Assembly: GCA_029820045.1 (NCBI GenBank)
Contig: JALGVE010000019.1
Coordinates: 1 to 45,874, forward strand
DNA length: 45,874 nucleotides
Direction of reading: 5' to 3'
Source: Candidatus Zipacnadia bacterium
Lineage (GTDB): Bacteria; Armatimonadota; Zipacnadia; Zipacnadales; UBA5352
Position numbers and translations under genes: made by a program. Positions 18,088 to 45,368 of this stretch are shown here, in pieces (within the stretch, counting starts at the first letter, position 1; the number at the start of each line of letters is the position of its first letter). The notes under the pieces are model-generated. The model did not search any database and was not told where the DNA came from. It worked only from the letters and a program-made list of their open reading frames with translations.

Positions 18088-18110
18088 GGGCAGGAGTCCC
18101 GTTGACGGCG

Positions 18111-18170: not shown

Positions 18171-18179
18171 TAAGGCGCG

Positions 18180-19543: not shown

Positions 19544-20623
19544 CTACAGGACACCCTCCAACGCCTCCGCCAGGCGCTGGCCGACGACCTCAGGCGCGAA
19601 GGTCTGAGTCACTAGCTTGCGGCCCCTCTCCCCCATCGTGCGCCGCAGTTCCGCGTCGTCAAGCAATCTGTTGAAGATCGGCAGGCACTCGTGAGGATCA
19701 GCGTTGTTGGCGACCACGTAGCCGGTTTCGCTCTCGCGGAGGTGCTCGGTCAGCGGGGGATAGTCGTTGACTACCACGGGACGCGCGCAGGCCCAGGCCT
19801 CCAGCGGCACGTTCGGACAGGCGTCCAGGAAGGAAAAGAAGGGCACAAAGTCGCTGCACTGATAGAGCCTTTCTATCCTGTCCACGTAGCCGGCGAGGAT
19901 CAAACGCGGGTGATTGAGCAGATCGCGGTTGCCAGCCATGAAGTTCGGGCGCACGTCGCCATCGCCGGCGATAACGACCGCTGTGTCCTCGCGCTGCTCC
20001 ACTAGGGCCCTCAGCGCTGGCAGAAAGCGCTCGACCGCGGCGACCTTCTTGAGGAAGGTGAAGTTCGTGACCAGCGCGACGATATGCTCGTGCTTGTAGC
20101 CCAACTCGCGTTTGACAACGGCAGGGTCGCGGGCGGGGCGGAAGCGCTCGGTATTGATAGCGATGGGAACGGGGATCATCCGGTTGGGGTCCACGACGAT
20201 GTGCTCCAGGAGCATCTGCTTGAGGGTTTCGGAGACTGGAAGGATCGCGGCGGCGCTTCGGAAGCAATCCTCGAACAGCTCGACGGCCCAACGGCTTCCG
20301 GCCAGGCCCAGTTCGCCGCGGAGGCGCAGGTCCTCGTGCTCCTGCCACCAGTCGCCGCGCGGGCGGAGGACAAAAGGCCGACCGCGCAGGCTGGCTCCAA
20401 GGCTGGCGGCGACGGCGGGGAAGGTCATGACCATGTCGGTGAGCACGACGTCGGCGGTGGAGATGGCAGTGCGGGTGAGGCCGGCGATGGCGTCGCGCAG
20501 GAGTTCCCCCTTGTGGGGGGTGTCGCTGGCCACACACATCTCGACCTCGACGCCGACCCGCTGGAGGGGCTCAGCGATCTTGACGCGGGCCCTCCGGGCC
20601 GCCGGGGCTATGAGCACTCTCAT
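19544..20623 (-). CDS. Glycosyltransferase family 4, paralogue 3
   Basis: 359 aa. N-terminus MRVLIAPAARRARVKIAEPL; donor site FSFLDACPNVPLEAWACARP and VVVNDYPPLTEHLRESETGY. It shares DADVxLTDM-type, ILPVSETLKQMLLEHIVVDP and RIERLYQCSDF motifs with the other two. Its ATG (20621-20623) overlaps the TGA of the upstream GT2 gene as TGATG, so translation is probably coupled, and GAGGGTG is 8 nt upstream. It is the most diverged of the three, consistent with an older duplication. Confidence 0.87.
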   Translation of the reverse strand: MRVLIAPAARRARVKIAEPLQRVGVEVEMCVASDTPHKGELLRDAIAGLTRTAISTADVVLTDMVMTFPAVAASLGASLRGRPFVLRPRGDWWQEHEDLRLRGELGLAGSRWAVELFEDCFRSAAAILPVSETLKQMLLEHIVVDPNRMIPVPIAINTERFRPARDPAVVKRELGYKHEHIVALVTNFTFLKKVAAVERFLPALRALVEQREDTAVVIAGDGDVRPNFMAGNRDLLNHPRLILAGYVDRIERLYQCSDFVPFFSFLDACPNVPLEAWACARPVVVNDYPPLTEHLRESETGYVVANNADPHECLPIFNRLLDDAELRRTMGERGRKLVTQTFAPEVVGQRLAEALEGVL

Positions 20624-21666
20624 CAGGCGGCACCCTCGTTCAGTTCCGCCTCGATGCGCTTGAGCAGCCGGTAGCGGCGTATACTGCCGAACAGTCCCCA
20701 GGCCTTGACGAGACGCCCGAGGTAGACCATGCGCTGGTATTGCGGGAACAGCTTAGCGAAGAGCGGCCAGCTCAACCGAGGGAGGCGCCGAAGCAAGCTG
20801 AGGCCGGGCGGTAGCGCGGGCAGGGCATCGAGCTTGGCGATGGTCTCCCGGGCCAGGTTCTCGTCCCCTCCGGAGAGGAGAATCAGGGTGGTGGCCTGCG
20901 CTATCTGGTACGCGGTAAGAAGGCTGTGCTCGCGGCGGTCAAGGAGCTGGAGAGTGTCCGGGGAGTTCTTTGCAGGGTCGAGCTTAGCAAGGGTGCGCAG
21001 TCGGCCCTCGAGGATGCCCCGCGTTTGGCTGCGGGTGGATCGGCTGCCCGGGCGGCGATGATGAATGTAGAGGGGCTCGTCAAGGCAGTACAAAGTGTAT
21101 CCGCGGTACATCATTCTGCAGAGGAGATCGAGGTCCTCGAAGAATTGCTGGCTCAGGTCGTAACCGCCGACGTCCAGGAGGACCTGACGAGGGAGGACGA
21201 TGGAGTTAGCCATCGGGTGGCGATCGCTGAAGATGTCGGCGACGGACGACTGCCAGATGCGCTGGGGGGCCGGGTTATGAGCGAGGTAGCGCTCGGAGCC
21301 GGCCAGGCGCCAGCCGTTGGTGCCCAGGATGTCTATCTCCGGGTGCTCACGAAGGACCTGCACTTGCCGCTGAGCCTTCTCCGGGGCCCACTCATCATCG
21401 GAGTCGAGGAACCCGATGAGTTCGCCGGAGGCGACGCGTACGCCGGTGTTGCGCGCCGCGCATGGGCCCGCGTTCTCCTGCTCAACATATGTCACCTGGG
21501 GATACTGTCGCTGGACGAGATCGGCGGTGTCATCGGTAGAACCGTCGTTGATGACCACGATCTCGATGTGGTCGTAGGTCTGGGCGAGGAGGGAATTGAT
21601 GGCCCGGCTCAGGAGATGCGCGTTGTTGTAGGTGGGGATGACGACACTGAGCAGAGGCGAAGTCAT
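20623..21666 (-). CDS. Glycosyltransferase family 2 (GT-A fold), polysaccharide block
   Basis: 347 aa from ATG at 21666. Canonical GT2 features: LSVVIPTYNNAHLLSRAINS, VINDGSTDDTADLVQ (nucleotide binding), QENAGPCAARNTGVRVASGE, and the DxD-type FLDSDDEW that binds the metal-nucleotide complex. GGYDLSQQFFEDLDLLCRM is the later conserved ED segment. The C-terminal 120 residues are helical and of unknown role. The enzyme is cytosolic and inverting. The stop codon overlaps the next GT start (TGATG). The SD region is a GGTCGG-type repeat (21675-21692) with weak spacing. Confidence 0.9.
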   Translation of the reverse strand: MTSPLLSVVIPTYNNAHLLSRAINSLLAQTYDHIEIVVINDGSTDDTADLVQRQYPQVTYVEQENAGPCAARNTGVRVASGELIGFLDSDDEWAPEKAQRQVQVLREHPEIDILGTNGWRLAGSERYLAHNPAPQRIWQSSVADIFSDRHPMANSIVLPRQVLLDVGGYDLSQQFFEDLDLLCRMMYRGYTLYCLDEPLYIHHRRPGSRSTRSQTRGILEGRLRTLAKLDPAKNSPDTLQLLDRREHSLLTAYQIAQATTLILLSGGDENLARETIAKLDALPALPPGLSLLRRLPRLSWPLFAKLFPQYQRMVYLGRLVKAWGLFGSIRRYRLLKRIEAELNEGAA

Positions 21667-21674
21667 GGTAAGAG

Positions 21675-21692
21675 TACCGACCTCGGACTTAC
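21675..21692 (-). repeat. GGTCGG-type motif upstream of a GT2 start
   Basis: Minus strand GTAAGTCCGAGGTCGGTA ends 8 nt before the ATG at 21666. Confidence 0.6.
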
Positions 21693-21845
21693 TGATCTTT
21701 GCATGATTGCAGCACAAGCTACGTTCACACAACCCGCCTCCCGAGGGCGTGCAGACGCTGTAACGTCGGGCCTTGGCAGGCACGACGGCTCGTTTGCGCC
21801 GAGAATATCAGTAGGGACATCTCACTGACGGCAAAGGCAAATCGC

Positions 21846-21860
21846 AGAGATGCAGAGAAC
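21846..21860 (+). repeat. Repeat family D copy
   Basis: CAGAGATGCAGAGAA, one mismatch to the consensus CAGAGACGCAGAGA, about 50 nt before a family A pair. Confidence 0.5.
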
Positions 21861-21910
21861 GGCAACGGCATGTCCAGGTTAACGGCAATGGCAGGACTTG
21901 GTTGTTGTTT

Positions 21911-21988
21911 GTAGGTCGGGCTTTCTAGCCCGACTCCTTCCGTTGGCGGGATGAATCAACGGCGTCGGGCTAGGAAGCCCGATCTACG
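21911..21988. repeat. Repeat family A, paired hairpin
   Basis: GTAGGTCGGGCTTTCTAGCC begins stem 1; GTCGGGCTAGGAAGCCCGAT forms stem 2; ends GTAG/CTAC. Confidence 0.8.
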
Positions 21989-22008
21989 AACGGCAAGGGC
22001 CCTCTGTC

Positions 22009-22090
22009 GTTCGCCCCTCTGCCTCCCGCCCATCCGCGCCCGTTGCGCGGGACAGGTCGGGCGGGAGGGAGAGGAGCCGGGGGTGAGGCG
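22009..22090 (-). repeat. Repeat family C copy, inverted
   Basis: Arms CCCCTCTGCCTCCCGCC / GGGCGGGAGGGAGAGG, closing with CCGGGGGTGAGG; opposite orientation to the copy at 18111. Confidence 0.7.
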
Positions 22091-22093
22091 CCG

Positions 22094-23284
22094 TTACCTC
22101 CGTGCCTCCGTTAGCGCCCAAGCCAGGTGGCCGAGCGTTGCACCGAGATTCCGGCGGGCCCCTCTCCCCAGCCATGACAACCCGCTGGCCACCCTTCGAT
22201 CCCTCAGCCGATGCAGCCCCAGCGCAGCATAGATCGAGGCCGCCCGCGAACTGCTTCGGCTGCCAGCGCCCTGACCGGTGGAGGCCAACGCCTCAACGAG
22301 CTCGACGATCTCAGCAGCGGTCGGCAGCTCCTCTGCGGATCGCGCGGCATGGGCCTGTTCCCAACTGCGGATGGCGCCACCTGCCGACTGCCCGAAGGCG
22401 TAGTCCCCCGGCAGGGCCTCGGCCGTGCGAATGACCTCGAACAGCTCTCTCCCGAAGGCGTCCCACGCAAGCTGCTCTGCCCGCAGCAGAACGAGCTGGC
22501 AGCTTGCCGACAGCAAGCTGCGCGCCAGCAGAGGCCGGTGTTGCTGCTTCTCGGGCGGGAGCATGGTGAGAAGTTTCTGCATTGTGCGCCGCCGCGCCTG
22601 GAAGTGCTTGCCTCGCTGACGGTCGCTGTGGGTCTTCCGGCCCGGGTGCTCGCGCACGAGCATCAGCGGCTCGCGCAGGTATACCGCCGGATAATGCAGC
22701 GCCACGCGCAGGAAGAGGTCGGTGTCCTTGCCCGTGGGAAGCTCCTCGTCGAAGAGCCCCAGCTCATCGAAGGCGCGCCTGCGCAGGATCACGCAGGTCT
22801 CTGTGATGACGGCCTGCCGCAGGAAGAGGGCGAAGTTGTCGCCGGTGCGGCCCCGGTCGGTGCTCCTGTGGATCTTCCCGGTGTTTTGGCCGTCGGCGCT
22901 GGCCTGCAGGCAGGCGCAGTAGGCAAGCGCGCAATCAGGATGCTCCTCGAGCGCGGCCATCTGCTTCTCGAGCTTGGTGGGAAGCCAGAGATCATCGTCG
23001 TCCATGAGAGCGATGTATTCCCCGCGCGCGGCGCGAACGGAGGTGTTGCGGGCGACGGCGGGCCCCTGGTTCTCCTGGTATATGTAGGTCAACCGGTCGC
23101 CGTAGCGCTCCTGGATGACGCGCCGAGTATCGTCGGTGGAGCCGTCGTCAACTACCACGACCTCGAAGTTGGGGTAGGTCTGAGCGAAGACGCTGTCGAG
23201 GGCCTCGATCACCATGCCCGCGCGATTGTAGGTGGTCACCGTGACAGTGACCAGAGGGGCATCGGCGGCGTTAGTGTCGGTCAC
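22094..23284 (-). CDS. Glycosyltransferase family 2, second copy in the block
   Basis: About 396 aa if begun at a GTG (23284) with GGAGGTCGCA directly before it; an ATG at 23338, 2 nt after the upstream stop codon, would add 18 residues but has no SD. GT2 signatures: PLVTVTVTTYNRAGMVIEAL, VVDDGSTDDTRRVIQ, QENQGPAVARNTSVRAARGE and the metal-binding LMDDDDLWLPTKL. GLFDEELPTGKDTDLFLRVA is the conserved later acidic motif. The C-terminal third is Arg/Leu-rich and helical and may contact the membrane. An inverting transferase adding a sugar to a lipid-linked intermediate is expected. Downstream of the phosphodiesterase pair on the same transcript. Confidence 0.88.
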   Translation of the reverse strand: MTDTNAADAPLVTVTVTTYNRAGMVIEALDSVFAQTYPNFEVVVVDDGSTDDTRRVIQERYGDRLTYIYQENQGPAVARNTSVRAARGEYIALMDDDDLWLPTKLEKQMAALEEHPDCALAYCACLQASADGQNTGKIHRSTDRGRTGDNFALFLRQAVITETCVILRRRAFDELGLFDEELPTGKDTDLFLRVALHYPAVYLREPLMLVREHPGRKTHSDRQRGKHFQARRRTMQKLLTMLPPEKQQHRPLLARSLLSASCQLVLLRAEQLAWDAFGRELFEVIRTAEALPGDYAFGQSAGGAIRSWEQAHAARSAEELPTAAEIVELVEALASTGQGAGSRSSSRAASIYAALGLHRLRDRRVASGLSWLGRGARRNLGATLGHLAWALTEARR

Positions 23285-23285
23285 T

Positions 23286-23303
23286 GCGACCTCCGAGTTA
23301 GGA
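23286..23303 (-). repeat. GGTCG-type motif serving as SD of a GTG start
   Basis: Minus strand TCCTAACTCGGAGGTCGC, 1 nt before the GTG at 23284: GGAGGT is 4 nt from the start codon. Confidence 0.55.
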
Positions 23304-23340
23304 GCATTGAGTCGGCGCCGTTCCCCCTGACTCTCCATCG

Positions 23341-24930
23341 CTAGAGATAGCCCAGGTCGCGCAGGCGTTGCTCGACCTTCTTCTGCTCCTCGTCCGTATA
23401 GGCCTCGCCAGCGTCGTCGCGCGGGCCCTCCCAGGCCTCGCCACCCTCTACGCGCTTTTCGGGCATATCTATGATGGTCTGACCATCGAGGTGGGCGGGC
23501 GCCGGCAAGGACAGCAGTGACAGGACCGTGGGCGCTATGTCCGCCAGCCCCGGATGCTCCAGGCTGACAGAAACCTCTCGGGAGGGGACTTTGCAGGCGA
23601 AAATGCCATCCGCGCGGTGGGTGCCCTCGCGGTAGGCCATGTCGCTGCCTAGGGCGCGGAGGTCCTGCGGGCTCAGGAAGGGCCTGTCCACGTTGCCGGG
23701 GATGGTCGTACGGTCAAGCGCAAAGCCCTGAGGGCTCCCCAGGACATCGGGTCCCAAGCCGGTGTGCGGTCCGGAGTAGTAATCTGCGGCGGCGAAGGCG
23801 CCAAGATCCTTCTCGCCGGAGAACGGGTTGTCCACGTGATTGAGCGCCTCGACTATCTCGGAGGTGACTTTGTGGTAGTCGCCCGGCGGCACAGACCCTC
23901 GCGCCTCGCGGCCCTCCAGGTTGATGCGCACACACAGGTAAGGCCCGGCCTGATAGGCGCGGGTCTCGCTGGGCTCAAAGGGCAGCCCGGCGAAGCGCTT
24001 CCTGATTTTCTTCTGCCGGCCCTGGGATAAGAAGGGTCGCACCAGGGTGTGATAGCCCTTACGGAGGGCGGACTTGACAGAGGCGCCCTGCCCGGCGGGC
24101 CTGGGGACTTGAAGGAAGCCGAGTTGCGCGAGTAAGGCGTTTACGTCGAGGAAGCCGCTCACCGGGCCGGCGCCGTGGTCCGAGAGCACCATCACCGCCG
24201 CGTCCTCGCCCGCGAGCGCCATCAACTCTCCCAGGAGCCGGTCAGCCTGCTGGTACGTCCACAGCACCAGGTCCTCGATCTCCCCGCAGGTGCGGCCCTT
24301 CATGAAGAAGTGCTGCACGTGATCCACGTAGTTGACAACGGTGATGAAGACATCCACTGGATGCTTCTCGAGCAGATAGACGGCCGCCTTACGGCGGGCC
24401 TCCACCTGGCGCTTAAGGGCGTCGAGGTCGTAGCCCTGCTCGTCGCGCCTGAGAGGAGCGATCACATAATCCGGGACGACGCGCTCAAGCTCCTCAAAAA
24501 GCTCGCGGGGATAGAACATTGAGCGGTCAAACTCCACCGCACCCATCTCGCCGCTGACCATGTAACCATTGAACTCGTTGGGCGGGTACGTCATGGGGAC
24601 GTTGTACACGCCGACGGACAGGCCGAGTTCACCAAGTTGCTCCCAGAGCGCGGGGGCGCGCCGATCCAGGTTGCTCACGGGGCGGTGTCGGTAGTTCGTG
24701 TCATAGGAGGAAAGGCCGAACATGCCGTGCTTGCCCGGGTTGACGCCGGTCATTATGGTCGGCCAGGCGCAGCCGGTGATGGGCGGCACGATGGAGCGCA
24801 GCCGCGCCCGGCAGCCGTCGCTGGTGAGTGCGGCCAGGTTGGGCAGTAGCCCGGCCTCCAGCCACGGGTCCATAAGGTCCCAGGTGGCGGAGTCAATGCC
24901 GAAGATGAGGAGCTTGGGATGGTTGGGCAT
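23341..24930 (-). CDS. Type I phosphodiesterase/alkaline phosphatase superfamily protein, paralogue 1
   Basis: 529 aa from ATG 24930 with GGAGA 6 nt upstream; a longer open frame runs into repeats. The fold's metal and catalytic residues are all visible: Asp13 in IFGIDSATWD, the probable nucleophile Thr52 in PPITGCAWPTIMTGVNPGKHG (first 20 residues of that motif), Asp and His in VVNYVDHVQHFF, VMVLSDHGAG, and His in EGTHRADGIF. The C-terminal tail ends RLRDLGYL. There is no signal peptide, so it acts in the cytoplasm. In the NPP family such enzymes cleave or transfer phosphodiester groups; in this operon a nucleotide-sugar or phosphate-bearing glycan is a plausible substrate (inference). Confidence 0.85.
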   Translation of the reverse strand: MPNHPKLLIFGIDSATWDLMDPWLEAGLLPNLAALTSDGCRARLRSIVPPITGCAWPTIMTGVNPGKHGMFGLSSYDTNYRHRPVSNLDRRAPALWEQLGELGLSVGVYNVPMTYPPNEFNGYMVSGEMGAVEFDRSMFYPRELFEELERVVPDYVIAPLRRDEQGYDLDALKRQVEARRKAAVYLLEKHPVDVFITVVNYVDHVQHFFMKGRTCGEIEDLVLWTYQQADRLLGELMALAGEDAAVMVLSDHGAGPVSGFLDVNALLAQLGFLQVPRPAGQGASVKSALRKGYHTLVRPFLSQGRQKKIRKRFAGLPFEPSETRAYQAGPYLCVRINLEGREARGSVPPGDYHKVTSEIVEALNHVDNPFSGEKDLGAFAAADYYSGPHTGLGPDVLGSPQGFALDRTTIPGNVDRPFLSPQDLRALGSDMAYREGTHRADGIFACKVPSREVSVSLEHPGLADIAPTVLSLLSLPAPAHLDGQTIIDMPEKRVEGGEAWEGPRDDAGEAYTDEEQKKVEQRLRDLGYL

Positions 24931-25212
24931 TCTTGTCTCCAGACGAACAGTAAGGGCAGATATACCGCAGAGACGCAGAGAGCGCAGAGAACGACTATCA
25001 AGGGAAACTACGAACGACGGGCAATCGCCACAGACGCAGACAACGATAGCGCGGAAGGGCCAATAACGCTTATCTACAGGGGCGCCGACATTCTTGTCGG
25101 CGGCCGTTTGTTCTGCCACTATCCGTTGGGCCTTGCGCGACAAGAGTGTCGCGCCTCCTGTAAGGGTCGCCTGGCCGTTTGTCGTTTCGCTTTGCCCTTG
25201 GCCGGCCGTTCC
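24931..25212. other. Intergenic region with composite D+B element
   Basis: 282 nt between the two phosphodiesterase genes, filled almost entirely by a D repeat (24966-24990) and a paired B element (25074-25171). Confidence 0.7.
24966..25171. repeat. Composite repeat D+B, copy 1
   Basis: D: CAGAGACGCAGAGAGCGCAG. B: stem 1 CGCCGACATTCTTGTCGGCG (25083-25102) and stem 2 GCGCGACAAGAGTGTCGCGC, with ends CTACAGG/CCTGTAAGGG. Confidence 0.8.
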
Positions 25213-26907
25213 CTACAGGTACCCCAGGTCCTTGAGCCGTTTCTCTACCTTCGCGGCGTCCTCCTCGGAATACGCCCCTTCGGGCGGGGTCGCGGGGCCG
25301 GCCTGCTTCGTTGGCGGCCAGAAGCCCTCAGGCAGGTCGGCGACGCCGGTGTCAGGCAGGTCCAACAGCACCCGGCCATCCATCTCGGTTAGCGCCGGCA
25401 AGCCCAGGAGCGCGAGCGCCGTCGGAGCTATGTCCACCAGCGTCGGATCCTCCACGACTATTCGTGGCCTGGGGCCTGGCGTCTTGCAGGCGAAGATGCC
25501 GGTCATGCGATGGGTCCCCGGCACGCCCGCCTTGCCCGGATAGCCGGGCCAGATGTCCTCGCCACGCAGAAACGCGCGCTCAGTGTTGCCCGGTATGTTG
25601 CGCAGGCTCAGCGCCGCGTCCTGAGGGGCGCCCAGGATGTCGGGCGCCCACTGCATGTGCGGCCCGTGGTAAAGCTCGTCGGCCGCGTGCGCGTCCAGGC
25701 CCCTGTGCTTGGTGAACGGGTTCTCGACTGCGTTTAGTTCCATGATGAGTTGATCGCGGACCCTCTGAAAATCCTCTGGCGCAACCTGGCCCTCCCGCTC
25801 GCGCCCCTGGAGGTTCAGGCGTATTGACAGGTACGGCCCTGCCGAGTAAGCGAGCGTGCGCGACCAGTCTATCGCCTCCGCCAGGTCGCCGAACTGCCGG
25901 AGCGCCTGCTCCGCCATGTTCGTCCGCTGAGCCGCGCCGCCGGAAGCTGTGTCGCGGCGCAGGCGGGCCTTGAGGTGGTGCTTGACGCTGGTCGGGAGGA
26001 GGCGGCCGAGCCGCCCTCTCCCCCACCTCAGCGCCGATGAAATGCCCTGCTTCATTTTGCGTGAGGCCGGCAGCGCATGATACCTCAGATAGCCCATCTG
26101 CGCCAGCAGCGCGTTGAGGTCGAAGAAGCCCTCCACGGGCCCCGCGCCGTGATCCGAGAGCACGATGACGCTGGTGTCCTTACCACAGTGGCTGAGCACC
26201 TCGCCCATGAACTCGTCGGCGGCGCGGTAGCCCCACAGCAGGATGTCCTCGATCTCCCCGCAGCGGCGCTCGCTGGCGAAGCGGTGCTGGAGGTGGTCCA
26301 CGTAGTTGATGACGGTGATGAAGACATCGGTCGGATGATGCTCCAACAGGTAGGCGGCGGCGCTGCGGCGTGCGTCCACCTGCGCCCGGAGCGCCTCCAG
26401 GTCGAACTCGGCTCCGTGGCGTCTGTGCACCGGAGCTATCTCATACCTGGGGACGACCTTACGAAGCTCCTCGAACAGCTCCGGGGGCTGGAACATGGAC
26501 TCATCGTAGGCGACTGCGCCCATCTCCCCGCTGACCATGTAGCCGTTAACCTGGTTCGGGGGATAGGTTATCGGCACATTGTAGACGCCGACCGAAAGGC
26601 CGCGCGCGGCCAGGATGTCCCAGAGGGCGGGCGCGCGCCGGTCGGCGTTCGAGATGAGGCGGGGCAGATAGTCGGCCTCGAACCTGACGAAGAAGGTGAG
26701 GCCGTGCTTGCCCGGGTTTGCGCCGGTCATGATGGTGGGCCAGGCGCAGGCGGTGCTCGGCGGAATGACGGAGCGCAGCGGGCTGCGGCAGCCCTCGGCG
26801 ATGAGGGAGGCGAGGTTGGGGAGTTCGCCGGTCTCCAGCCAGGGGTCCATGCGGTCCCAGGTGGCGGCGTCAATGCCGATTATTGCGAGTTTCAGGGGGT
26901 TAGGCAT
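25213..26907 (-). CDS. Type I phosphodiesterase/alkaline phosphatase superfamily protein, paralogue 2
   Basis: 564 aa. Clear paralogue of the previous gene: MPNPLKLAIIGIDAATWDRM at the start, nucleophile Thr52 in PPSTACAWPTIMTGANPGKH, metal sites in VINYVDHLQHRF, VIVLSDHGAGPV and GTHRMTGIF, and the tail VEKRLKDLGYL. It has an additional 35-residue Arg-rich insert (around residues 290-330, LRWGRGRLGRLLPTSVKHHL). GGAGGTCGG from a GGTCGG-type repeat lies about 10 nt before the ATG. It is cytosolic. Two non-identical copies adjacent in one operon suggest two phosphoryl steps or two substrates. Confidence 0.85.
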   Translation of the reverse strand: MPNPLKLAIIGIDAATWDRMDPWLETGELPNLASLIAEGCRSPLRSVIPPSTACAWPTIMTGANPGKHGLTFFVRFEADYLPRLISNADRRAPALWDILAARGLSVGVYNVPITYPPNQVNGYMVSGEMGAVAYDESMFQPPELFEELRKVVPRYEIAPVHRRHGAEFDLEALRAQVDARRSAAAYLLEHHPTDVFITVINYVDHLQHRFASERRCGEIEDILLWGYRAADEFMGEVLSHCGKDTSVIVLSDHGAGPVEGFFDLNALLAQMGYLRYHALPASRKMKQGISSALRWGRGRLGRLLPTSVKHHLKARLRRDTASGGAAQRTNMAEQALRQFGDLAEAIDWSRTLAYSAGPYLSIRLNLQGREREGQVAPEDFQRVRDQLIMELNAVENPFTKHRGLDAHAADELYHGPHMQWAPDILGAPQDAALSLRNIPGNTERAFLRGEDIWPGYPGKAGVPGTHRMTGIFACKTPGPRPRIVVEDPTLVDIAPTALALLGLPALTEMDGRVLLDLPDTGVADLPEGFWPPTKQAGPATPPEGAYSEEDAAKVEKRLKDLGYL

Positions 26908-26912
26908 CCGAG

Positions 26913-26936
26913 TACCGACCTCCGACTACCGACTAA
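26913..26936 (-). repeat. GGTCGG-type motif upstream of paralogue 2
   Basis: Minus strand AGTCGGTAGTCGGAGGTCGG, with GGAGGT about 10 nt before the ATG at 26907; the unit is partly doubled. Confidence 0.6.
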
Positions 26937-26952
26937 CGGCAACGGCGAACGG

Positions 26953-27120
26953 CCACAGAGACGCAGAGAACGGCAAGGGCGAAGGGCGAATGACGTTTAT
27001 CTACAGGGGCGCCGACATTATTGTCGGCGGCCGTTTGTCGTTTGGAGCTTCGAGCCGCGAGCCGGCAGCCCCAAGGGCCTCGCGCGACAAGAATGTCGCG
27101 CCTCCTATAAGGGCCGCCTG
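26953..27120. repeat. Composite repeat D+B, copy 2
   Basis: D: CAGAGACGCAGAGAACGGC. B stem 1 GCCGACATTATTGTCGGC, stem 2 GCGCGACAAGAATGTCGCGC, ends CTACAGG/CCTATAAGGG. Confidence 0.8.
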
Positions 27121-27135
27121 GCCGTTAGCCGTTGC

Positions 27136-28674
27136 CTATTCCCGATTGCCTGCCGTCAGGAGCTTCCTTCTCAGAGCCGCCAGCACCTCGCGATCATCGT
27201 CCTCAAGCCCCAGCAATATCACGACTACTACATAAGCGATGGCGAAAGCCACCACCGGCAGCGTCAGGTCCCACCAGACTGGTTCCATCTTGAGAAGCAG
27301 CAACGGGCAAGTTATCACCGCAGCCAGCAGCGGCTTGACGACCTTGCGCGTGTAGGCCGTCATTCGGTGCAGATACCAAAGCTCTGCACCCCGCACCACG
27401 TTCACTGTGGCCGTCGCCACCGTCGCGCCCAGGGCCATCCCGAAAAGTCCGTAGCTGCTAGTGAGGAGTATGCACAGTGCTACGTTTACCACCGCCAGGG
27501 CGGCATTGTTCGCCGCCACCAGCCACTGACGGCCCGACATCGCCAGGGCCCGGCCCGCATTGCCTACCGAGGCGTTCACTAGCTGGCCCAGGCACAAGAG
27601 CTGCAGCACAAAGGCGGCATCCACGGCCTCGGGGCGGAAAACCCACATGATGCTCTTGGCCTTGAAGATAGCGATGAGCATCACCGGGAAGGTCATATGA
27701 TAGACCCAGCGGGCAGAGGTCTGGAACATCTCGCGCAGTTCCGCCATCTTCCCGCGATGGTGCAGGTCAGCGATGATGGGGCTGAAGATGGTCCCTATCG
27801 AGGTGAGGCCGAAGGAGCCGAGGGTCGCCACGCGGCTGGCGGCCCCGTACTTGCCCCATTCGGCCAGTTTGAGCCAGCGTGCGCCGACCAGAGGGTTAAT
27901 ACGGTACATGCCGAACTGCGACAACTGGGCAAGAAGCAGCGGCAAGGCGAAAAGCTGTACCTGGGCGAAGTCGTAGTAGCGCAGGTCGGCGAAGGAAAGG
28001 CCCCCGAACACACGCACGACGCCTGCCAGGGTGACCGCCGCCCCGGCGGTAGATGCCACCAGGAGCGCGAAGCCCGCGCCCACCGGGCCCAGCCTGAGCG
28101 GCCCACACAGAACGATCACGCCCGCCAAGGTAATGAACCTGCCCAGCAGGTTCGCCGCCACTTTGTAGACTACGGTGCGCCTGGCGACGGTAGCCTGGGC
28201 AAGGAGGGACGCCATGAGCATCGCTGGCAGGGCGAGCGCCAACATGCGCAGCACCGGGCCCATGTCTGCCCTGTGGGCAACGAGGATGCTCACTTCTTCG
28301 GGCCAGATGACCACCACGGTGCTGGCGGCGCAGCCCAGAGCCAGCGAGGTGACGAGGGTGCCGGTTACCACTGCCCGGGCATGCTCGGGCCGGGCCTCGC
28401 CATCGTAGATGCCGACGTAGCGGGCGATCGCGCTGGGATAGCCCAGCCTCAGGATGAGGCCCAGTATCTCGACGGACCTCTGGCTGACCGTGAAGAGACC
28501 GTATCCAGCCATGCCAAGCAGGCGCGTCATGACCGGCCCGGCGATGAGGGCAATGAGTTGCTGGGCTAGCTGGCCGAGCAGGTCGAGGCCGCCGCCTTTG
28601 GCGACGGCCCGCAGTTCGCGGTTGTAATGCGCCTGCCTGGGGTCTTTATCTGCGCCGCGCGGCGTGTCAGCCAT
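27136..28674 (-). CDS. Wzx-type polysaccharide flippase (MOP superfamily)
   Basis: 512 aa with about 12-14 hydrophobic spans, the size and topology of polysaccharide biosynthesis proteins (PF01943/PF13440). Family landmarks: LLGMAGYGLFTVSQRSVEIL in the first repeat, with a following LGYPSAIARYVGIY, and the second-half counterpart GQLVNASVGNAGRALAMSGR followed by NNAALAVVNVALCILLTSSY. The role is to move lipid-linked repeat units from the cytoplasmic to the periplasmic face for polymerisation by the O-antigen ligase/polymerase of this block. There is no clear SD. It follows the nucleotidyltransferase gene on the minus strand. Confidence 0.87.
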   Translation of the reverse strand: MADTPRGADKDPRQAHYNRELRAVAKGGGLDLLGQLAQQLIALIAGPVMTRLLGMAGYGLFTVSQRSVEILGLILRLGYPSAIARYVGIYDGEARPEHARAVVTGTLVTSLALGCAASTVVVIWPEEVSILVAHRADMGPVLRMLALALPAMLMASLLAQATVARRTVVYKVAANLLGRFITLAGVIVLCGPLRLGPVGAGFALLVASTAGAAVTLAGVVRVFGGLSFADLRYYDFAQVQLFALPLLLAQLSQFGMYRINPLVGARWLKLAEWGKYGAASRVATLGSFGLTSIGTIFSPIIADLHHRGKMAELREMFQTSARWVYHMTFPVMLIAIFKAKSIMWVFRPEAVDAAFVLQLLCLGQLVNASVGNAGRALAMSGRQWLVAANNAALAVVNVALCILLTSSYGLFGMALGATVATATVNVVRGAELWYLHRMTAYTRKVVKPLLAAVITCPLLLLKMEPVWWDLTLPVVAFAIAYVVVVILLGLEDDDREVLAALRRKLLTAGNRE

Positions 28675-28726
28675 TGCCGGGTGGCCCGTTTCGTGCTGCG
28701 ATGGTTGGGGCGAACGGCAACGTCCG

Positions 28727-28780
28727 CCTCACCCCCGGCCCCTCCCCCTCACAACGGCAGTTCGGGGGAGGGGAGTAACG
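28727..28780 (+). repeat. Repeat family C copy
   Basis: CCTCACCCCCGGCCCCTCCC ... GGGGGAGGGGAG, in the gap between nucleotidyltransferase and flippase genes. Confidence 0.75.
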
Positions 28781-28805
28781 ATAACTGCGCGTCGTTGCTT
28801 GCCCT

Positions 28806-29663
28806 TTACGTCCAGGCGGCGATTTCTCCCTCTGCCGACCTGCCCTCAATCCGCCCGGCGCAGTATACCAGGCTGTCTTTGATGGCGCAATTGATCAACT
28901 CTCCCGAGCCGAACACCAGGGAGTTCTCGATCTGGCAGTCATGCGTTCGGACCTCGATGCTGCTGTCGCTGGATGCGGCCTGAGGCGGGCGTAGCTCCCT
29001 CATGACCCGGAGCACGCCGCTAACGCCCTCATGGTCGCCGAACTGAAGCCACGGGCCCTGCATCTGCACCGCGCGCACCTCTGCGCCGCTGCGCATCAAC
29101 TCCTGTACGCCCTGGAGCACCCGCAGCTCGTTCCTCATGGGAGCCAGGCCGTCGAGCATCTCATAGATGGCTGACGAGAATCGAAATGTGCCCGCGTCCA
29201 CGAAGGAGGAGTCGGCCCACAATTCCTCCACGATGAAGCCGTCGCGCATCAAGACCCCCGTGTGGTTCTCCGCATCCGGGACCTGGATCACCGTGAGGAC
29301 CGCATCTGCCGGGGCATGGAGGATCTGAGTGAGCGTCTCGCACGGCGGACAGGTGTCGGCCAGGAGCACGAGGAAGGGATCGCTCAGCATGTCGCGCGTC
29401 TGCAGCAGGGCATCTCCGGTGCCCATCGGGCGGTCCTGGTGGACGTAGCGCAGGGCGATATCGCCGTGAGCGTTGCCAAGGTGGCGCTTGATCTTGTCAT
29501 CGGCGTCTATGACGATGATAGCCTCGTCTACGAAGCCCTGGAGATTGTCCAGAAGATAGTCAATAAAGGGCTTGCCCCAGAAGGGGATGAGCGGCTTAGG
29601 AACGTGTTCGGTAACGGGCCGCAGGCGCTCGCCGCGGCCAGCAGCCAGGAGTACGCCTTGCAA
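28806..29663 (-). CDS. Sugar-nucleotide pyrophosphorylase (nucleotidyltransferase)
   Basis: About 285 aa. The SD decides the start: TTGGAGAG is 8 nt before a TTG at 29663, giving MQGVLLAAGRGERLRPVTEH; a GTG at 29672 is only 1 nt from the SD. The signature GxGxRLxPxTxxxPKPLIPFWGKP is intact, with the catalytic Lys in PKPL, followed by the metal Asp region VLLADTCPP. The C-terminal 60 residues contain short hexapeptide-like steps (TDxxIENSLVFGSGELINCA, KDSLVYCAGRIEG), a rudimentary left-handed beta-helix. It activates a sugar-1-phosphate with an NTP; sugar not assignable. With the phosphomutase at 31.7 kb it would supply NDP-sugar for the block. First gene of the minus-strand block. Confidence 0.85.
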   Translation of the reverse strand: MQGVLLAAGRGERLRPVTEHVPKPLIPFWGKPFIDYLLDNLQGFVDEAIIVIDADDKIKRHLGNAHGDIALRYVHQDRPMGTGDALLQTRDMLSDPFLVLLADTCPPCETLTQILHAPADAVLTVIQVPDAENHTGVLMRDGFIVEELWADSSFVDAGTFRFSSAIYEMLDGLAPMRNELRVLQGVQELMRSGAEVRAVQMQGPWLQFGDHEGVSGVLRVMRELRPPQAASSDSSIEVRTHDCQIENSLVFGSGELINCAIKDSLVYCAGRIEGRSAEGEIAAWT

Positions 29664-29734
29664 TGAGTTCACTCTCCAACAGCAACAACGAAACCAACGA
29701 CAGCCTACGACAACAGCAAGCAAGCAGTCGGCCT

Positions 29735-29861
29735 GCAGGTCGGAACAAGAGGTCCGACGCGTTAATCGTTTGCACAGCAGGCAACGGCGTGGGAGCAAGA
29801 GTTCCGAGCTACGGTGGGCAACTGGGTCAACGGCGTCGGAGCAGGAACTCCGACCTACGAG
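29735..29861. repeat. Repeat family A, diverged paired copy
   Basis: GGTCGGAACAAGAGGTCCGA and GTCGGAGCAGGAACTCCGAC, 73 nt apart, with ends GCAGG/CCTACGAG. Stem sequence changed from GGGC to GGA type, but the pairing is kept. Confidence 0.6.
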
Positions 29862-29913
29862 GAGCCGCCGCCGCCGTGAGCCCCTTGGTCGTAGCTCGCG
29901 GCTGACGGATGCC

Positions 29914-29941
29914 TTTGCCCTTTGCCCGCCGTACTATATAA
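29914..29941 (+). promoter_or_regulatory. Sigma-70-type promoter of the wzz-like/phosphomutase genes
   Basis: TTGCCC (29914-29919), 16-bp spacer, perfect TATAAT (29936-29941). Start of transcription would be near 29948, leaving a leader of about 100 nt. Confidence 0.6.
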
Positions 29942-30046
29942 TGCGTGCGCGGCGCGGCGAGAGAGGTGCCGCGCCACTTGTGCAGGAAAATATCACAGTG
30001 ACCGGTGGCTGTCAACCTGAGCGCTGCGAGCCAGGGACCTGAAACA

Positions 30047-36362: not shown

Positions 36363-36710
36363 CTACTCCTCCCGCAGTGCGTCCGCGACGGCCCCGAGGT
36401 CCTCCAGGGCTGCGTCCAAGGCGTAGTTGGCGATGGCGGACTTGCTGGTCTTGACACCATGCTCTGTGAGCAGAAGGAAGCGGGCCTCCTCAAGACGGTA
36501 GAGAACGGAGCGGGTAAGATAGAGGGTGACGGGGTACTTCGGTTCGTCTTCGGTAGGCGGCGCCGGAGATGGCTGCGGCTCCTTGCGAGCACCTTGCTTC
36601 TTTAACGTTGTACCGGGTTGCCGTTTTAACGGCTTACCCTCATCCGGCTCCGGTTGGGCCGGTGCGTCGTCGAAGAAGACGTCCTCGGGTATCTCTGGCC
36701 TCTTACGCAC
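36363..36710 (-). CDS. Ribbon-helix-helix partner protein of ParA
   Basis: 115 aa. AGGAGGT is 7 nt before a GTG at 36710, which overlaps the parA stop codon region by 8 nt. An N-terminal half of about 50 residues is disordered, charged and proline-rich (DDAPAQPEPDEGKPLKRQPG). The C-terminal part PKYPVTLYLTRSVLYRLEEA begins a ribbon-helix-helix: a beta-strand VTLYL then two helices ending SKSAIANYALDAALEDL. This matches centromere-binding proteins of type Ib partition systems (ParG-like), with an N-terminal flexible tail that stimulates ParA. Small, cytosolic and probably dimeric. It would bind the repeats around 37.5-37.6 kb and repress its own promoter (inference). Confidence 0.75.
   Translation of the reverse strand: MRKRPEIPEDVFFDDAPAQPEPDEGKPLKRQPGTTLKKQGARKEPQPSPAPPTEDEPKYPVTLYLTRSVLYRLEEARFLLLTEHGVKTSKSAIANYALDAALEDLGAVADALREE
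36601..36633. repeat. Iteron-like sites inside the RHH gene
   Basis: TTTAACGTTGTACCGGG (36601-36617) repeats 16 of 17 bases of 37575-37591, and GCCGTTTTAACGGC (36620-36633) adds a second partly palindromic unit. Confidence 0.5.
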
Positions 36711-37455
36711 GCTTGAGGACCTCCTTGGCCAGCTCCCGGTACGCCTGGGCGGCCGGGCTGTGGGGTCTAAGGTGAATGAGCGGCTCCGCCGCGACGGTAG
36801 CATAGTCGAAAGCCACGGTGCGGGGAATGACAGCGTCGAAAACGAGATCGCCGAAGTGGTCGCTCAGGCGCTGCTTGACCTCCTGGGCGTGGCGTGTGCG
36901 AGCGTCATACATGGTGAGCAGCAGGCCCAGGACGCGCAGCTTCTGATTGCTGCGGTCCTGCACGCGCTCGACGGTGCGCAGTAGTTGGCGCAGGCCCTGC
37001 ATGGCAAGGTAGGAGGTCTGCACCGGGATCAGGACCTCGTCGGCGGCGGTGAGGGCGTTGATGGTCAGAAAGCCGAGGCTGGGGGGGGTGTCTATCAGCA
37101 CCACGGTGCGCTTAGCGAGCCCCTGGAGCTTCTGAGCGAGGCGCTGCTGGCGGGCATGGGCGGAACTCAGCTCAACCTCAGCGGCGGCGAGCGCAGATTC
37201 TGAGGGCACAACTGCCAGGTTGTCCCACCGCGTCATGAGCATAAGGTCCCGCAGTTGGATGTCCGGCGAGAGCAGCAGGTCGTGGGTGGATAGCTCCACC
37301 TCCTCGACACCGGCGATGGTGGTCAAGTTCGCCTGGGGATCAGCGTCCACCAGGAGGACGCTCTCCCCCACCTCGGCCAGCGCCGCGCCCAGGTTAAGGA
37401 CGCTGGCGGTCTTCCCCACGCCGCCCTTCTGATTCGCCACGGCGATGACGCGCAT
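36703..37455 (-). CDS. parA: ParA-family partition ATPase (small, type Ib-like)
   Basis: 250 aa with no N-terminal DNA-binding domain. Deviant Walker A: ANQKGGVGKTASVLNLGAAL; Walker A' VLLVDADPQANLTT; Walker B VVLIDTPPSLGFLTINAL. A later IPRTVAFDYATVAAEPLI segment is typical of ParA/Soj. It forms an ATP-driven gradient on nucleoid DNA that moves a centromere-bound partner. The start codon follows AGGTGG by 5 nt. It is the first gene of a two-gene operon with the RHH protein, under the promoter at 37517-37545. Confidence 0.88.
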   Translation of the reverse strand: MRVIAVANQKGGVGKTASVLNLGAALAEVGESVLLVDADPQANLTTIAGVEEVELSTHDLLLSPDIQLRDLMLMTRWDNLAVVPSESALAAAEVELSSAHARQQRLAQKLQGLAKRTVVLIDTPPSLGFLTINALTAADEVLIPVQTSYLAMQGLRQLLRTVERVQDRSNQKLRVLGLLLTMYDARTRHAQEVKQRLSDHFGDLVFDAVIPRTVAFDYATVAAEPLIHLRPHSPAAQAYRELAKEVLKRA

Positions 37456-37516
37456 CGGCCCACCTGCCTTTGTCAGTCCTCACGCGGAGTTGCTCCGCTT
37501 GGACGCTGCCAGCGTT

Positions 37517-37545
37517 ATCCTACCGGCTTAACGGCTTCCTGTCAA
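37517..37545 (-). promoter_or_regulatory. parA promoter with an operator-like spacer
   Basis: Minus strand perfect TTGACA (37545-37540), 17-bp spacer, TAGGAT (37522-37517). The spacer contains GCCGTTAAGCCGG, related to the repeats at 37571-37620, so binding there would block transcription. Confidence 0.6.
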
Positions 37546-37570
37546 CCCCGCTTGCAGTTCAAAGCCTGAG

Positions 37571-37620
37571 GCCGTTTAACGTTATACCGGGCCCATTAAG
37601 CCCGCTTAACGTTAAACGGC
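37571..37620. repeat. Candidate partition centromere (parS/parC-like inverted repeat)
   Basis: Left arm GCCGTTTAACGTTATACCGG and right arm ending GCTTAACGTTAAACGGC: 14 bp pair perfectly. Each arm holds the palindrome TAACGTTA (37577-37584 and 37607-37614), centres 30 bp apart. It lies 26 bp upstream of the parA -35. No T-run, so not an ordinary terminator. Confidence 0.55.
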
Positions 37621-37653
37621 TTTAGGGTATTGCCGACATGACGACTTGTGCTC

Positions 37654-39068: not shown

Positions 39069-39118
39069 CCTCACCCCCTGCCCCTCTCCCTCGCAACAAC
39101 GGCTTGGCAGAGGCGAGA
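39069..39118 (+). repeat. Repeat family C copy
   Basis: CCTCACCCCCTGCCCCTCTC ... GGCAGAGGCGAG; first of a duplicated module. Confidence 0.7.
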
Positions 39119-39125
39119 ACATGGA

Positions 39126-39149
39126 GGGGCCGGTCGCCTGACCGGCCCA
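39126..39149. repeat. GC hairpin, copy 1
   Basis: GGGCCGGTC/GACCGGCCC arms with loop GCCT, preceded by GGAG; the same hairpin recurs at 39279-39302. Confidence 0.6.
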
Positions 39150-39222
39150 TGTGTCAGGCCCTCGGGAAAGGAACCTCCGGTGCGGGCGCGAATGTTAACG
39201 TGTGCGGGATAGAAGGACGGCG

Positions 39223-39271
39223 CCTCACTCCGGCCCCTCTGCCTCGCAACGGCGGCTTGGGAGAGGGGAGA
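39223..39271 (+). repeat. Repeat family C copy
   Basis: CCTCACTCCGGCCCCTCTGC ... GGGAGAGGGGAG; second of a duplicated module. Confidence 0.7.
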
Positions 39272-39278
39272 GGATGGA

Positions 39279-39302
39279 GGGGCCGGTCGCCTGACCGGCC
39301 CA
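39279..39302. repeat. GC hairpin, copy 2
   Basis: Same stem-loop as at 39126-39149, both preceded by ATGGAGG. Confidence 0.6.
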
Positions 39303-39964: not shown

Positions 39965-39994
39965 GGCTTCGGACCAGTGACGGCTCTTTCTTTT

Positions 39995-40043
39995 TCTCCC
40001 CTCTCCCAGGCCGCCGTTGCGAGGGAGAGGGGCCGGGGTGAGG
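39995..40043 (-). repeat. Repeat family C copy, inverted
   Basis: TCTCCCCTCTCCCAGGCCGC ... GAGGGAGAGGGGCCGGGGTG, upstream of the initiator gene. Confidence 0.7.
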
Positions 40044-40104
40044 CGGCTGTTGCCGTTTGCCGCCAGGGAGGAATTGGTGGCCCGCTGGAGAAACTCACTG
40101 AATA

Positions 40105-41568
40105 GTGCCTACATCGGGATCACGGAAAAAGAGAAGCAAAGCGTCACTTCGCCAAGGCATCCCGCTCCGGGTAGGCCGCGACGAGATGAACCTGGCGGAG
40201 TTCCCCTTCGCACTGCTGGCCGATCGCCATCCTAAGGGCGTTGATACCGTCGTCTTCAGCGACACCGTCACCGGCCCCGACCGCGAGCAGGTCGAGCGCA
40301 TCTGGACCGTGACCGGCTCCGACGAGTTCGGCCTGCCCCTGGCGAGCGATGAGCTGGTTTACGTGGCCCTGATGGAGGTCACTAAGGAGCAGGGCTTCCG
40401 CAACCGCACTATCTACATCACACGCTACAACCTCATCAAGCGCCTGGGCTGGCCGGACAAGGGCGGGAGCTACACGCGGTTGCAGGACGCGCTGGACCGG
40501 CTGCTGGGCGTCACCATCAAAGCCGAGCGCGCGTTCTGGGACAACAAGAAGCACCGCTACGTGGATGTGGGCTTCCACATCATTGACGATTACGCGATCT
40601 ACGATGAGCAGCCCGGCCGCAAGGCCCGGGTGGGGAAGAGGCGCCTGCCCTACAGCTACGTGAGCTGGAACCAGGTAATCTTCGCCAGCTTCCAGTCTGG
40701 TTACATCAAGCACCTGGATACGGCATTCTACTTCGGCCTGCACTCGGCGCTGTCGCGGCGGCTGTATCGCTACCTGGATAAGAAGCGGTATGACGGCAAG
40801 CCGCAGTTCAGAATCGGCCTGCGCAAGCTGGCCTTCGAGAAGCTGGGGATGAGTCGCAACTACTACCCCAGTCACATCAAGCAGGAACTAGCCCGCGCCC
40901 ATGCGGAACTGACCGAGCAGGGCTTCCTGCGGGGCGCTGAGTATCAGCCTCGCCGGGGTAAGCGCGATGACCTGGTTGTCTATCGGTTCACTTCGCGCAA
41001 GTACATGGTGGAGGAAAAGGTAGAGGACAGCAAGCGCAATGAACTCGTTGAGCTACTGGTGGCGGAGGGGGTTACGCGGTCGGTGGCCGACGAGCTGGTG
41101 GCCGAATACGGCGAGGAGGCGCGGGTACAGCTCAAGTACTTACCCTTCCGCGCGCCGCGCGATGCGGCGGCGGTGCTGGTGCAATCTATCCGCGGGCAGT
41201 GGGAGCCACCTGCCTCCTATCTGCAGGCGCGCAAGGAGCGGCAGGAGGTTGCCACAGCCCAGCGCGAGCAGGAGCAGTTCATTGCGGTGGCTCGCCAGCG
41301 ACAGCTTGCTGACGCCATCGAGCGTCAAGCGGCCGACGCGGTGCTGGCGGCCCTGCCTGCGCGGGCGCGCCAGCGGATCCTTGAAGAGGCGCGGGAGCGA
41401 TTGGCCCTCGAAAATCCCCTGGTCGCAGGCGCTCCCGACTCGGCCGCCTACGAGGCCATCCTCAACGAGAACATGCGGGAGATGGCGATTGCTGAGCACC
41501 CGGCGCAGTTCAATGAGCAGCGGACGGCGTTATGGGCCCGGGCGGACGGCGTCGAGGACGACCTCTGA
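40105..41568 (+). CDS. Plasmid-type replication initiator protein A (RPA family)
   Basis: 487 aa from a GTG at 40105; an ATG at 40186 (MNLAEFPFALL) is the conserved family start and an alternative. RPA/TrfA-like landmarks: NLAEFPFALLADRHPKGVDT, IWTVTGSDEFGLPLASDELV, YITRYNLIKRLGWPDKGGSY with LDRLLGVTI, then SWNQVIFASFQSGYIKHLDT, LSRRLYRYLDKKRYDGKPQF and KLAFEKLGMSRNYYPSHIKQ. These belong to two winged-helix domains that bind replication-origin iterons. The C-terminal 140 residues are helical and Arg/Gln-rich. It would open an origin for replication. Its position 2.7 kb from the ParA operon suggests a cryptic or integrated replicon. No iterons are obvious beside the gene. Confidence 0.82.
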   Translation: MPTSGSRKKRSKASLRQGIPLRVGRDEMNLAEFPFALLADRHPKGVDTVVFSDTVTGPDREQVERIWTVTGSDEFGLPLASDELVYVALMEVTKEQGFRNRTIYITRYNLIKRLGWPDKGGSYTRLQDALDRLLGVTIKAERAFWDNKKHRYVDVGFHIIDDYAIYDEQPGRKARVGKRRLPYSYVSWNQVIFASFQSGYIKHLDTAFYFGLHSALSRRLYRYLDKKRYDGKPQFRIGLRKLAFEKLGMSRNYYPSHIKQELARAHAELTEQGFLRGAEYQPRRGKRDDLVVYRFTSRKYMVEEKVEDSKRNELVELLVAEGVTRSVADELVAEYGEEARVQLKYLPFRAPRDAAAVLVQSIRGQWEPPASYLQARKERQEVATAQREQEQFIAVARQRQLADAIERQAADAVLAALPARARQRILEEARERLALENPLVAGAPDSAAYEAILNENMREMAIAEHPAQFNEQRTALWARADGVEDDL

Positions 41569-43736: not shown

Positions 43737-45368
43737 TCACAGGTTGAAGGCATTGAGAATATCGGGATGCAGCCCATTGAAGCTGTGCAGGTGGTCAAGC
43801 CGTTCGCGCCGTAGCTCTTCCACGTAGGCGTCAATCTGCTCCTGCGTATAGTACTTGCTCGTCTCGAAGCGGCTGAGGTCCACGCCCTCACAGACCGCAG
43901 GCACCTGTGTGCCCCAGTGAGGTTCATCCTCCCACTCGATCTCCTCGCGCACTATGCCCCGAATAATGGCCGCCATCTCCGGTATCTCTACCCGATCCAC
44001 CGTCTGCACCTCCACCTTCTCGCCGCGGTCGTTGGTCTCGATGATCTCGCCCACCCCACCAGTGTTCAACTGATAGCACTGGATCTTGTCCGGGTGATTG
44101 GAGATGAACTCGTAGAAGCGGTTACCCTCGTGGGCCTCATCGCCACAGATGAAGGGGTTGGTGCCGACTACACGGATGGACTCGCCCACGCGCGTCGGGT
44201 CGCTGCCGGTGGTGTGAACGGACTCGCCCAGCATGAACGCGGCCGCGCCCTGCGCTGGGGTCAGCTTGGCGACCGGCGGCAGTATGGTGTTGCGGCGCGT
44301 GATGAAAGCGATGACCAGCGCATCCAGCTCCTCGACCGGCGGCAGGTTAATGCTCGGGCTCGCCAGCTCGCCGAGGTCCGCGCGCTGAATGACTGCCCGG
44401 CCATTGCCAGTGAGCACTTCATCGCTCATGTAGACACGGCCGAGGTAGTCCACCATGACATTCTCGAAGATAGTTCTGGGGCTCTTCGCTGCCTTGTAGA
44501 GGATAGGCTGGGAGCCATCCTCGAGGCTGTCGGTCTTGATGAAGAGGCCGTTCTCGCTGCCCAGGGCGCTGCCATCGGGTTTGAAGAAGACCACGTCATC
44601 CTGGACCAGATGGACCTCCTCGCCCTCGCGGTCGAGGTCGTGGGTATGCCCCGCATGTGTGGTCTTGCCGGTGGCGGTGAGGCCGAGCAGGAGCATCCCG
44701 TAGCGCTTCAGCTTGCCATTGCTGGTGCGCGCGGTGATGAGCTTGGCCCCGGCGTGCAGGCCTAGCATCCCCCGCGCTTTTGCGAACCACATCGCCATAC
44801 GCAGGAAGCCTTTTTTGGCTTCGCCAAAGTAGTCGGTGCCCAGGACGTAGGTGACGCCGATCTCGGGGAAAACCAGGGCCTGGCGGTCCTTCTCCTGCCA
44901 CTCCGGTATATAAACCAGGTTCATCTCCGGACCGCGCGCCAGGCGCGGCTCATACATCGTCTGATACCACATATAGGAGAGGCGGATGGAGTCCTTGCGA
45001 TGCGTGGAGACATACATGGTGCAGTGCGGCGCGAACTCGTGGTTGCTGCCCATGGCGCGCGCGGTGCAGACTATTGGACAGTGCTGTATGTACCTGTGGA
45101 CCTTATCGAGCGTCTGCGGCAGTTCACGGATGATACGCTGCTGATCCGGGTTAGGGTTCTTGTCGAGGAGGTCTGGCGGGCCGAGGATGACCGTGCGATC
45201 CTTGCTGCGATTGCGCACCGAGCTCGAGAAGTTGACGCTGCCGAACTCGGTGCGAACCCCGTAGTGCTCGGCCATGCGTCGGAGCTGGTCGCCGTCAGGA
45301 CGCCCCACATTGTCCTGATCACGCAACTGCTCGATAACGCGGATTATGTCGTCATAGTACGCACGCAT
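43737..45368 (-). CDS. pckA: ATP-type phosphoenolpyruvate carboxykinase, divergent branch
   Basis: 543 aa. P-loop GLTATGKTTH (usually GLSGTGKTT), with Lys and Thr retained. Upstream VLGTDYFGEAKKGFLRMAMW keeps GTxYxGExKKG, and LGLHAGAKLI replaces MHCSAN but keeps the metal-binding His. The kinase-2 segment VQDDVVFFKPDGSALGSENG retains the Asp pair. NGRAVIQRADL and SPRTIFENVMVDYLGRVY supply Arg residues for substrate contact. The enzyme converts oxaloacetate and ATP to PEP, CO2 and ADP in gluconeogenesis, or runs in reverse. GAAGGA precedes the ATG; a promoter lies at 45463-45491. Catalytic residues appear complete despite divergent motifs. Confidence 0.87.
   Translation of the reverse strand: MRAYYDDIIRVIEQLRDQDNVGRPDGDQLRRMAEHYGVRTEFGSVNFSSSVRNRSKDRTVILGPPDLLDKNPNPDQQRIIRELPQTLDKVHRYIQHCPIVCTARAMGSNHEFAPHCTMYVSTHRKDSIRLSYMWYQTMYEPRLARGPEMNLVYIPEWQEKDRQALVFPEIGVTYVLGTDYFGEAKKGFLRMAMWFAKARGMLGLHAGAKLITARTSNGKLKRYGMLLLGLTATGKTTHAGHTHDLDREGEEVHLVQDDVVFFKPDGSALGSENGLFIKTDSLEDGSQPILYKAAKSPRTIFENVMVDYLGRVYMSDEVLTGNGRAVIQRADLGELASPSINLPPVEELDALVIAFITRRNTILPPVAKLTPAQGAAAFMLGESVHTTGSDPTRVGESIRVVGTNPFICGDEAHEGNRFYEFISNHPDKIQCYQLNTGGVGEIIETNDRGEKVEVQTVDRVEIPEMAAIIRGIVREEIEWEDEPHWGTQVPAVCEGVDLSRFETSKYYTQEQIDAYVEELRRERLDHLHSFNGLHPDILNAFNL

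Follow-up and report, generated by a model that had tools for sequence, protein, structure and literature searches.

The parA gene described here is followed by an overlapping gene for a putative ribbon-helix-helix (RHH) protein, and this arrangement raises the question of whether the pair forms a complete partition locus and, if so, which sequence serves as its centromere. Our study addressed this in the window, i.e. the whole stretch of DNA analysed (45,874 nucleotides), and in 41 genomes of the order to which it belongs (Candidatus Zipacnadia/WS1, Armatimonadota). An earlier note on this DNA had placed a partition locus at 36703–37620, a span that takes in parA and the upstream site without the second gene. 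The two genes of the operon are as follows.

36703–37455, minus strand: parA, encoding a 250-aa Soj-like ATPase with a deviant Walker-A motif (KGGVGKT) and without an N-terminal HTH
36363–36710, minus strand: open reading frame of the RHH-like partner (115 aa), conserved as the partner in the operon

The parA product matched PF13614 over residues 1–175 (E 2.9e-52), with Walker A at residues 9–16, and the closest solved structure was Thermus Soj 1wcv (E 4e-50). As the earlier note had held, this is a small ParA-type ATPase without an N-terminal HTH, the kind that characterizes type Ib systems. The partner gene has a GTG start and overlaps the parA stop. The operon was present in 24 of the 41 order genomes, with two par loci per genome in G025, G032 and G038, and gave one weak match among 250 other genomes of the phylum; the partner family is thus near-restricted to the order. 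Named relatives of the RHH protein came from five MAGs of Candidatus Zipacnadia/candidate division WS1, a class within Armatimonadota (PMC10290634). The host group consists of uncultured sediment bacteria. A canonical ParABS system was ruled out for this operon, as the only ParB_N match in the same genome lay at G000:C124, a separate locus away from the operon, and the window held no canonical parS (TGTTTCACGTGAAACA) with up to 3 mismatches allowed. The separate ParB_N locus makes parA-RHH a second ParA system.

The sequence upstream of parA and within the partner gene contains four features that bear on the centromere.

37517–37545, minus strand: sigma-70-type parA promoter (TTGACA-17-TAGGAT), inside the upstream array
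37565–37626, no strand assigned: imperfect inverted repeat containing the TAACGTTA palindrome twice, specific to this genome
37521–37639, plus strand: upstream 8-bp array found by a held-out cyclic HMM, spanning the promoter and the inverted repeat; candidate centromere/operator
36593–36647, plus strand: intragenic 8-bp array in the RHH gene (codons 22–40), found by the held-out HMM

The promoter and the palindromes were both found as previously described. The promoter has 10/12 matches, compared to an average of 0.1 promoter-like sites in shuffles of the region, and its spacer holds GCCGTTAAGCCGG. The TAACGTTA copies lie at 37577–37584 and 37607–37614, with centres 30 bp apart, within an inverted repeat whose 20-nt arms (37565–37584 and 37607–37626) are 90 % complementary, 14 nt of them perfectly. 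Base composition predicts 0.15 exact TAACGTTA copies in the window, and no other pair at 30 bp occurs in the 2.6-Mb, 59.6 %-complete genome. The earlier note had taken this pair to be the site and had proposed looking for it upstream of parA in related genomes. No orthologous upstream region contained TAACGTTA pairs at 30-bp spacing, one relative (L110) having two copies 181 bp apart; the note had itself named such an absence as refuting, and the pair was rejected as a conserved site. The conserved element is instead an 8-bp array. Relative to this array the phase of the second palindrome is shifted by 2 bp from that of the first, and as array units the palindromes read GTTTAACG TTATACCG and CTTAACG TTAAACGG.

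The array consists of direct repeats of a unit resembling TTATACCG and was present ahead of parA in each of the 24 loci whose upstream sequence could be read. A plain MEME-like EM on 8- and 16-mers, without phase, collapsed to composition, so a cyclic HMM was used instead, and this converged from differing starting points to the one unit. Autocorrelation upstream of parA, pooled across 16 loci, gave Stouffer z values of 10.6, 9.9 and 8.0 at lags 8, 16 and 24, with z ≤2.3 at all other lags. The cyclic-model gain was 725 nats at period 8 versus 115–275 at other periods between 5 and 12 (the second best being period 12, a multiple of codon length), versus 19–30 nats in regions picked at random from the same contigs and 78 in shuffles. 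The arrays, of which TTTTACCG TATTCCTG CCTTGCCG TATGGCCG GTTGACCG TTATACCG in L114 is an example, diverge in sequence between loci but keep the 8-bp period and the core CCG. They measure 100–290 bp. In relatives, a proximal block spanning the promoter is usually accompanied by another one at about −250 to −450; sigma-70 promoters (≤3 mismatches) overlie the proximal array in most orthologous loci. Loci L108 and L129 (G020 and G015) encode a diverged partner type (KATFYLY...KPQRSEIVSRALRL) beside ParA and RPA; 8-bp arrays are found there as well.

With the window's own family held out of training, the cyclic HMM found exactly two arrays across the entire 45.9 kb, both at the parA-RHH operon, while 100 shuffled windows yielded 3 segments of ≥40 bp and none of ≥54 bp. 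Phased units in the upstream array include GCTTAACG, GTTTAACG and TTATACCG. The intragenic units are CTTTAACG TTGTACCG GGTTGCCG TTTTAACG GCTTACCC, and array model R1 scored this array at 17.2 bits (E 2.4e-4 in the window). The window taken alone shows a modest autocorrelation at lag 8 (z 2.1 upstream and 3.3 intragenic). With L117, L122 and L123 the window shares a third block, located in the 5′ portion of the RHH gene; its upstream block is single, since an ABC-transporter permease gene has its end at 37670. The upstream copies of the motif are in the sequence as the earlier note described them; the 8-bp periodicity and the third copy, inside the RHH gene, had been overlooked.

Searching all 41 whole genomes with the sequence-only array model placed 16/16 matches with E<0.001 on par contigs, and at E<0.05 matches occurred in 18 of 24 RHH-positive genomes versus 0 of 17 RHH-negative genomes (p 7e-7). 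Most matches at par loci are training loci, and the informative parts are the match in the window's own genome and the absences. That genome lay outside the training set, and its only R1 match was the intragenic array. Two loci were without an 8-bp array: L105, where the same genome has its canonical ParA, and L103, an RPA locus without RHH. It is the RHH gene that the arrays track, rather than ParA or the replication initiator gene on its own. An extra array was seen at G025:C158:7131–7176, on the same contig as the rep-par module of L113, which adjoins flagellar genes (FliM, FlgI, FlgA) and sigma-54. Tandem repeats away from par also matched the array model at G022:C114:82794–82900 and G022:C116:10–135 (E ~0.002), and these may be unrelated.

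The 115-aa partner comprises an N-terminal RPEIPEDVFF motif, an unstructured linker and a C-terminal RHH-like domain. Across the family, the N-terminal motif is RPEIPEDVFF or KPKLPxAADFF, followed by a variable linker, and the domain consensus is VTFYLPxxLLxxLExxRxxLLxEHxxKxSRSQI. The protein had no family match in Pfam, NCBIfam or PHROGs, and no relatives among 72,556 plasmids or 50,697 phage records. Its AlphaFold (AF2) model is confident over residues 58–115 and of low confidence over residues 1–50, with an unstructured N-terminus and, in the last ~58 residues, a predicted extended strand-like segment followed by helices (a two-helix core). The earlier note had called this second gene RHH. 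The overlapping partner gene is there, but support for the fold from profile and Foldseek scores is weak: RHH_1 matched two of 25 family members at E ~0.02 (the window's own protein having no Pfam match), hhalign to RHH_1 proteins scored 14.3 compared to a marginally lower maximum of 13.9 among 40 column-shuffled controls, and the best Foldseek match, the RHH ParB of pCXC100 (PDB 3no7), was non-significant (E 2.1). Foldseek with a second predicted model of the partner gave no convincing match, and a PDB profile search detected no sequence similarity between pCXC100 ParB and the RHH-like protein. Taken together, the sequence and the models suggest that the partner is likely to have an RHH fold.

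The earlier description of the locus also overlooked an additional gene.

40105–41568, plus strand: RPA-type replication initiator (PF10134), putative rep counterpart to the par module

The match to PF10134 (E 6e-14, 52.5 bits) exceeds the Pfam gathering score of 27. RPA-type initiators were present in 16 of the 41 genomes, 14 of which have RPA on the same contig as the par operon and 0.1–6.1 kb from it; nine RHH-positive genomes are without RPA. Dispersed repeats of ~60–75 bp (CCTGCCCCTCTCCCTCGCAAC ... GGCCGGTCGCCTGACCGGCC), both direct and inverted, lie between par and RPA in the window at 39075–39302 and 39981–40045. In one genus, intergenic arrays with a period of 10 or 11 bp (TCTGCCGTTG / GCAGCACAACG units) occur on contigs carrying RPA/par (L116:450–700, 1800–2010 and 5200–5420; L111:60–480 and 3080–3230; L103:90–180).

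We consider it probable that this is a type-Ib-like partition module with an RHH protein acting on 8-bp arrays, most likely segregating a replicon started by RPA. Comparison across genomes gives good support to a type-Ib-like parA-RHH operon in which one motif would serve as both centromere and operator; the earlier note's partition reading persists, without the paired palindrome as its motif. By analogy with pSM19035 and TP228 (PMC9499535, PMC5016525, PMC7308502), RHH dimers would occupy one 8-bp unit after another, covering the array in a protein–DNA superhelix, the partition complex. The N-terminal RPEIPEDVFF tail may then engage nucleoid-bound ParA-ATP and stimulate ATP hydrolysis, and array-bearing DNA would follow the ParA gradient. 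Binding to the upstream array would also repress parA-RHH, because this array covers the −35/−10 region, and the intragenic array would supply a second binding block.

An autorepressor with arrays that are operators only, leaving ParA to position something else or persist as a relic, is unlikely: it would account for the proximal array overlapping the promoter in most loci and for the loss of RPA in nine RHH-positive genomes, but arrays of 100–290 bp are far beyond promoter-operator length, they are often joined by further blocks, one at −250 to −450 and one in the RHH gene, and a replication initiator accompanies the operon. Plasmid origins typically carry iterons, and RPA lies close to par in 14 genomes, as would be expected if the arrays were RPA iterons forming a replication origin rather than RHH sites. 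However, this is very improbable, as arrays are found upstream of parA in the RPA-less L097, L099, L100, L126, L127 and L128, are located at the parA promoter, and are lacking both at the RPA-only locus L103 and beside RPA in the window, where no typical iterons were seen upstream of RPA either. It is scarcely credible that the 8-bp pattern is a neutral tandem repeat or an artefact of codons or composition, for although coding DNA yields a period-3 signal (visible at period 12) and some unrelated tandem repeats fit the array model (G022:C114 and C116), 8 is not a multiple of 3, the period and core CCG persist while sequences diverge among loci, and neither random regions nor shuffles gave a comparable gain.

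The partition module proposed here can be compared to known systems, in which RHH centromere-binding proteins target contiguous short repeats overlapping promoters (PMC9499535, PMC5016525). The delta-omega system of pSM19035 similarly has an HTH-less ParA, an RHH protein and contiguous direct repeats over promoters, in several blocks (PMC9499535), and its ParA activation needs at least four contiguous repeats (PMC9499535, PMC5016525). Its delta and omega genes are transcribed separately (PMC5016525), whereas parA-RHH is one overlapping operon in Zipacnadia, and its repeat unit is the 7-bp WATCACW, compared to an 8-bp TTATACCG-like unit. An omega/parS-type site was ruled out, as no WATCACW heptads matched near par and period 7 gave no signal. 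TP228 (ParF-ParG-parH) differs from the Zipacnadia system in box sequence and protein family, and parH has direct and inverted repeats. The TP228 boxes are spaced ~8 bp from box to box. The two systems are alike in having ParA with an RHH protein that carries a flexible N-terminal tail. In TP228, as proposed for Zipacnadia, centromere and operator lie ahead of the operon and consist of the same short boxes, separated by AT-rich spacers (PMC7308502, PMC5016525). The pCXC100 centromere has direct repeats only (PMC5016525). Archaeal SegAB, a chromosomal system, also pairs ParA with an RHH protein through overlapping genes and has sites upstream of and within the operon, although SegB sites are 13-bp palindromes spread over the chromosome (PMC12284271), whereas the window's own genome has its phased 8-bp arrays at the par locus only. 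Judged by its sequence, the locus is probably a partition module of a known type (type-Ib-like), with a repeat unit and protein family that differ from known systems. The partner would represent a putative new family of centromere-binding proteins, outside Pfam, NCBIfam and PHROGs, for which an 8-bp recognition unit can be defined; within reach of the searches made, the earlier note's statement that the site sequence had not been described still holds. An array within the gene of its own predicted binding protein is unusual and would show how a centromere can constrain a protein linker.

The module probably serves a second replicon (chromid or megaplasmid) or an old plasmid integrated in the chromosome. 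This suggests that an uncultured Armatimonadota class has either a second partitioned replicon or a rep-par module that has been domesticated, neither being described in the literature searched. The 697 kb of par/RPA-linked contigs contained no tRNA, versus 5 tRNA clusters in 540 kb of control contigs from the same genomes (p ~0.016), a difference that is suggestive of a secondary replicon but non-decisive. Terminal overlaps were looked for as a sign of circular contigs, and none were found. The surroundings of par/RPA are chromosome-like (PEPCK, polysaccharide export and flagellar genes) or contain restriction-modification genes, and the gene order PEPCK / RPA / small hypothetical / par / SLBB is common to the window and L110, which belongs to another family. 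These data fit a chromid, and an old chromosomal integration is likewise possible. More tentatively, and with less confidence than in the partition module itself, Zipacnadia may carry an ancient chromid kept by the RPA initiator and an undescribed ParA-RHH system, with an 8-bp centromere that reaches into the RHH coding sequence and dictates part of the protein linker.

The window also contains the following gene beyond RPA.

43737–45368: PEPCK gene

A distant PEPCK-like gene (~25 % identity to that of the window) lies near par in L102, L115, L117, L122 and L124. Restriction-modification or defence-like genes adjoin or separate par and RPA at L118:1627–5026, L119:44–1912, L120:9502–11337 and L111:4113–6300, the defence-like genes near par/RPA including Type ISP, N6 methylase, GmrSD and AAA_15 with DUF4435. 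Elsewhere in the window, translations at 14302–30000 read as a polysaccharide biosynthesis cluster, with glycosyltransferase, O-antigen-ligase-like, flippase-like and nucleotidyltransferase ORFs.
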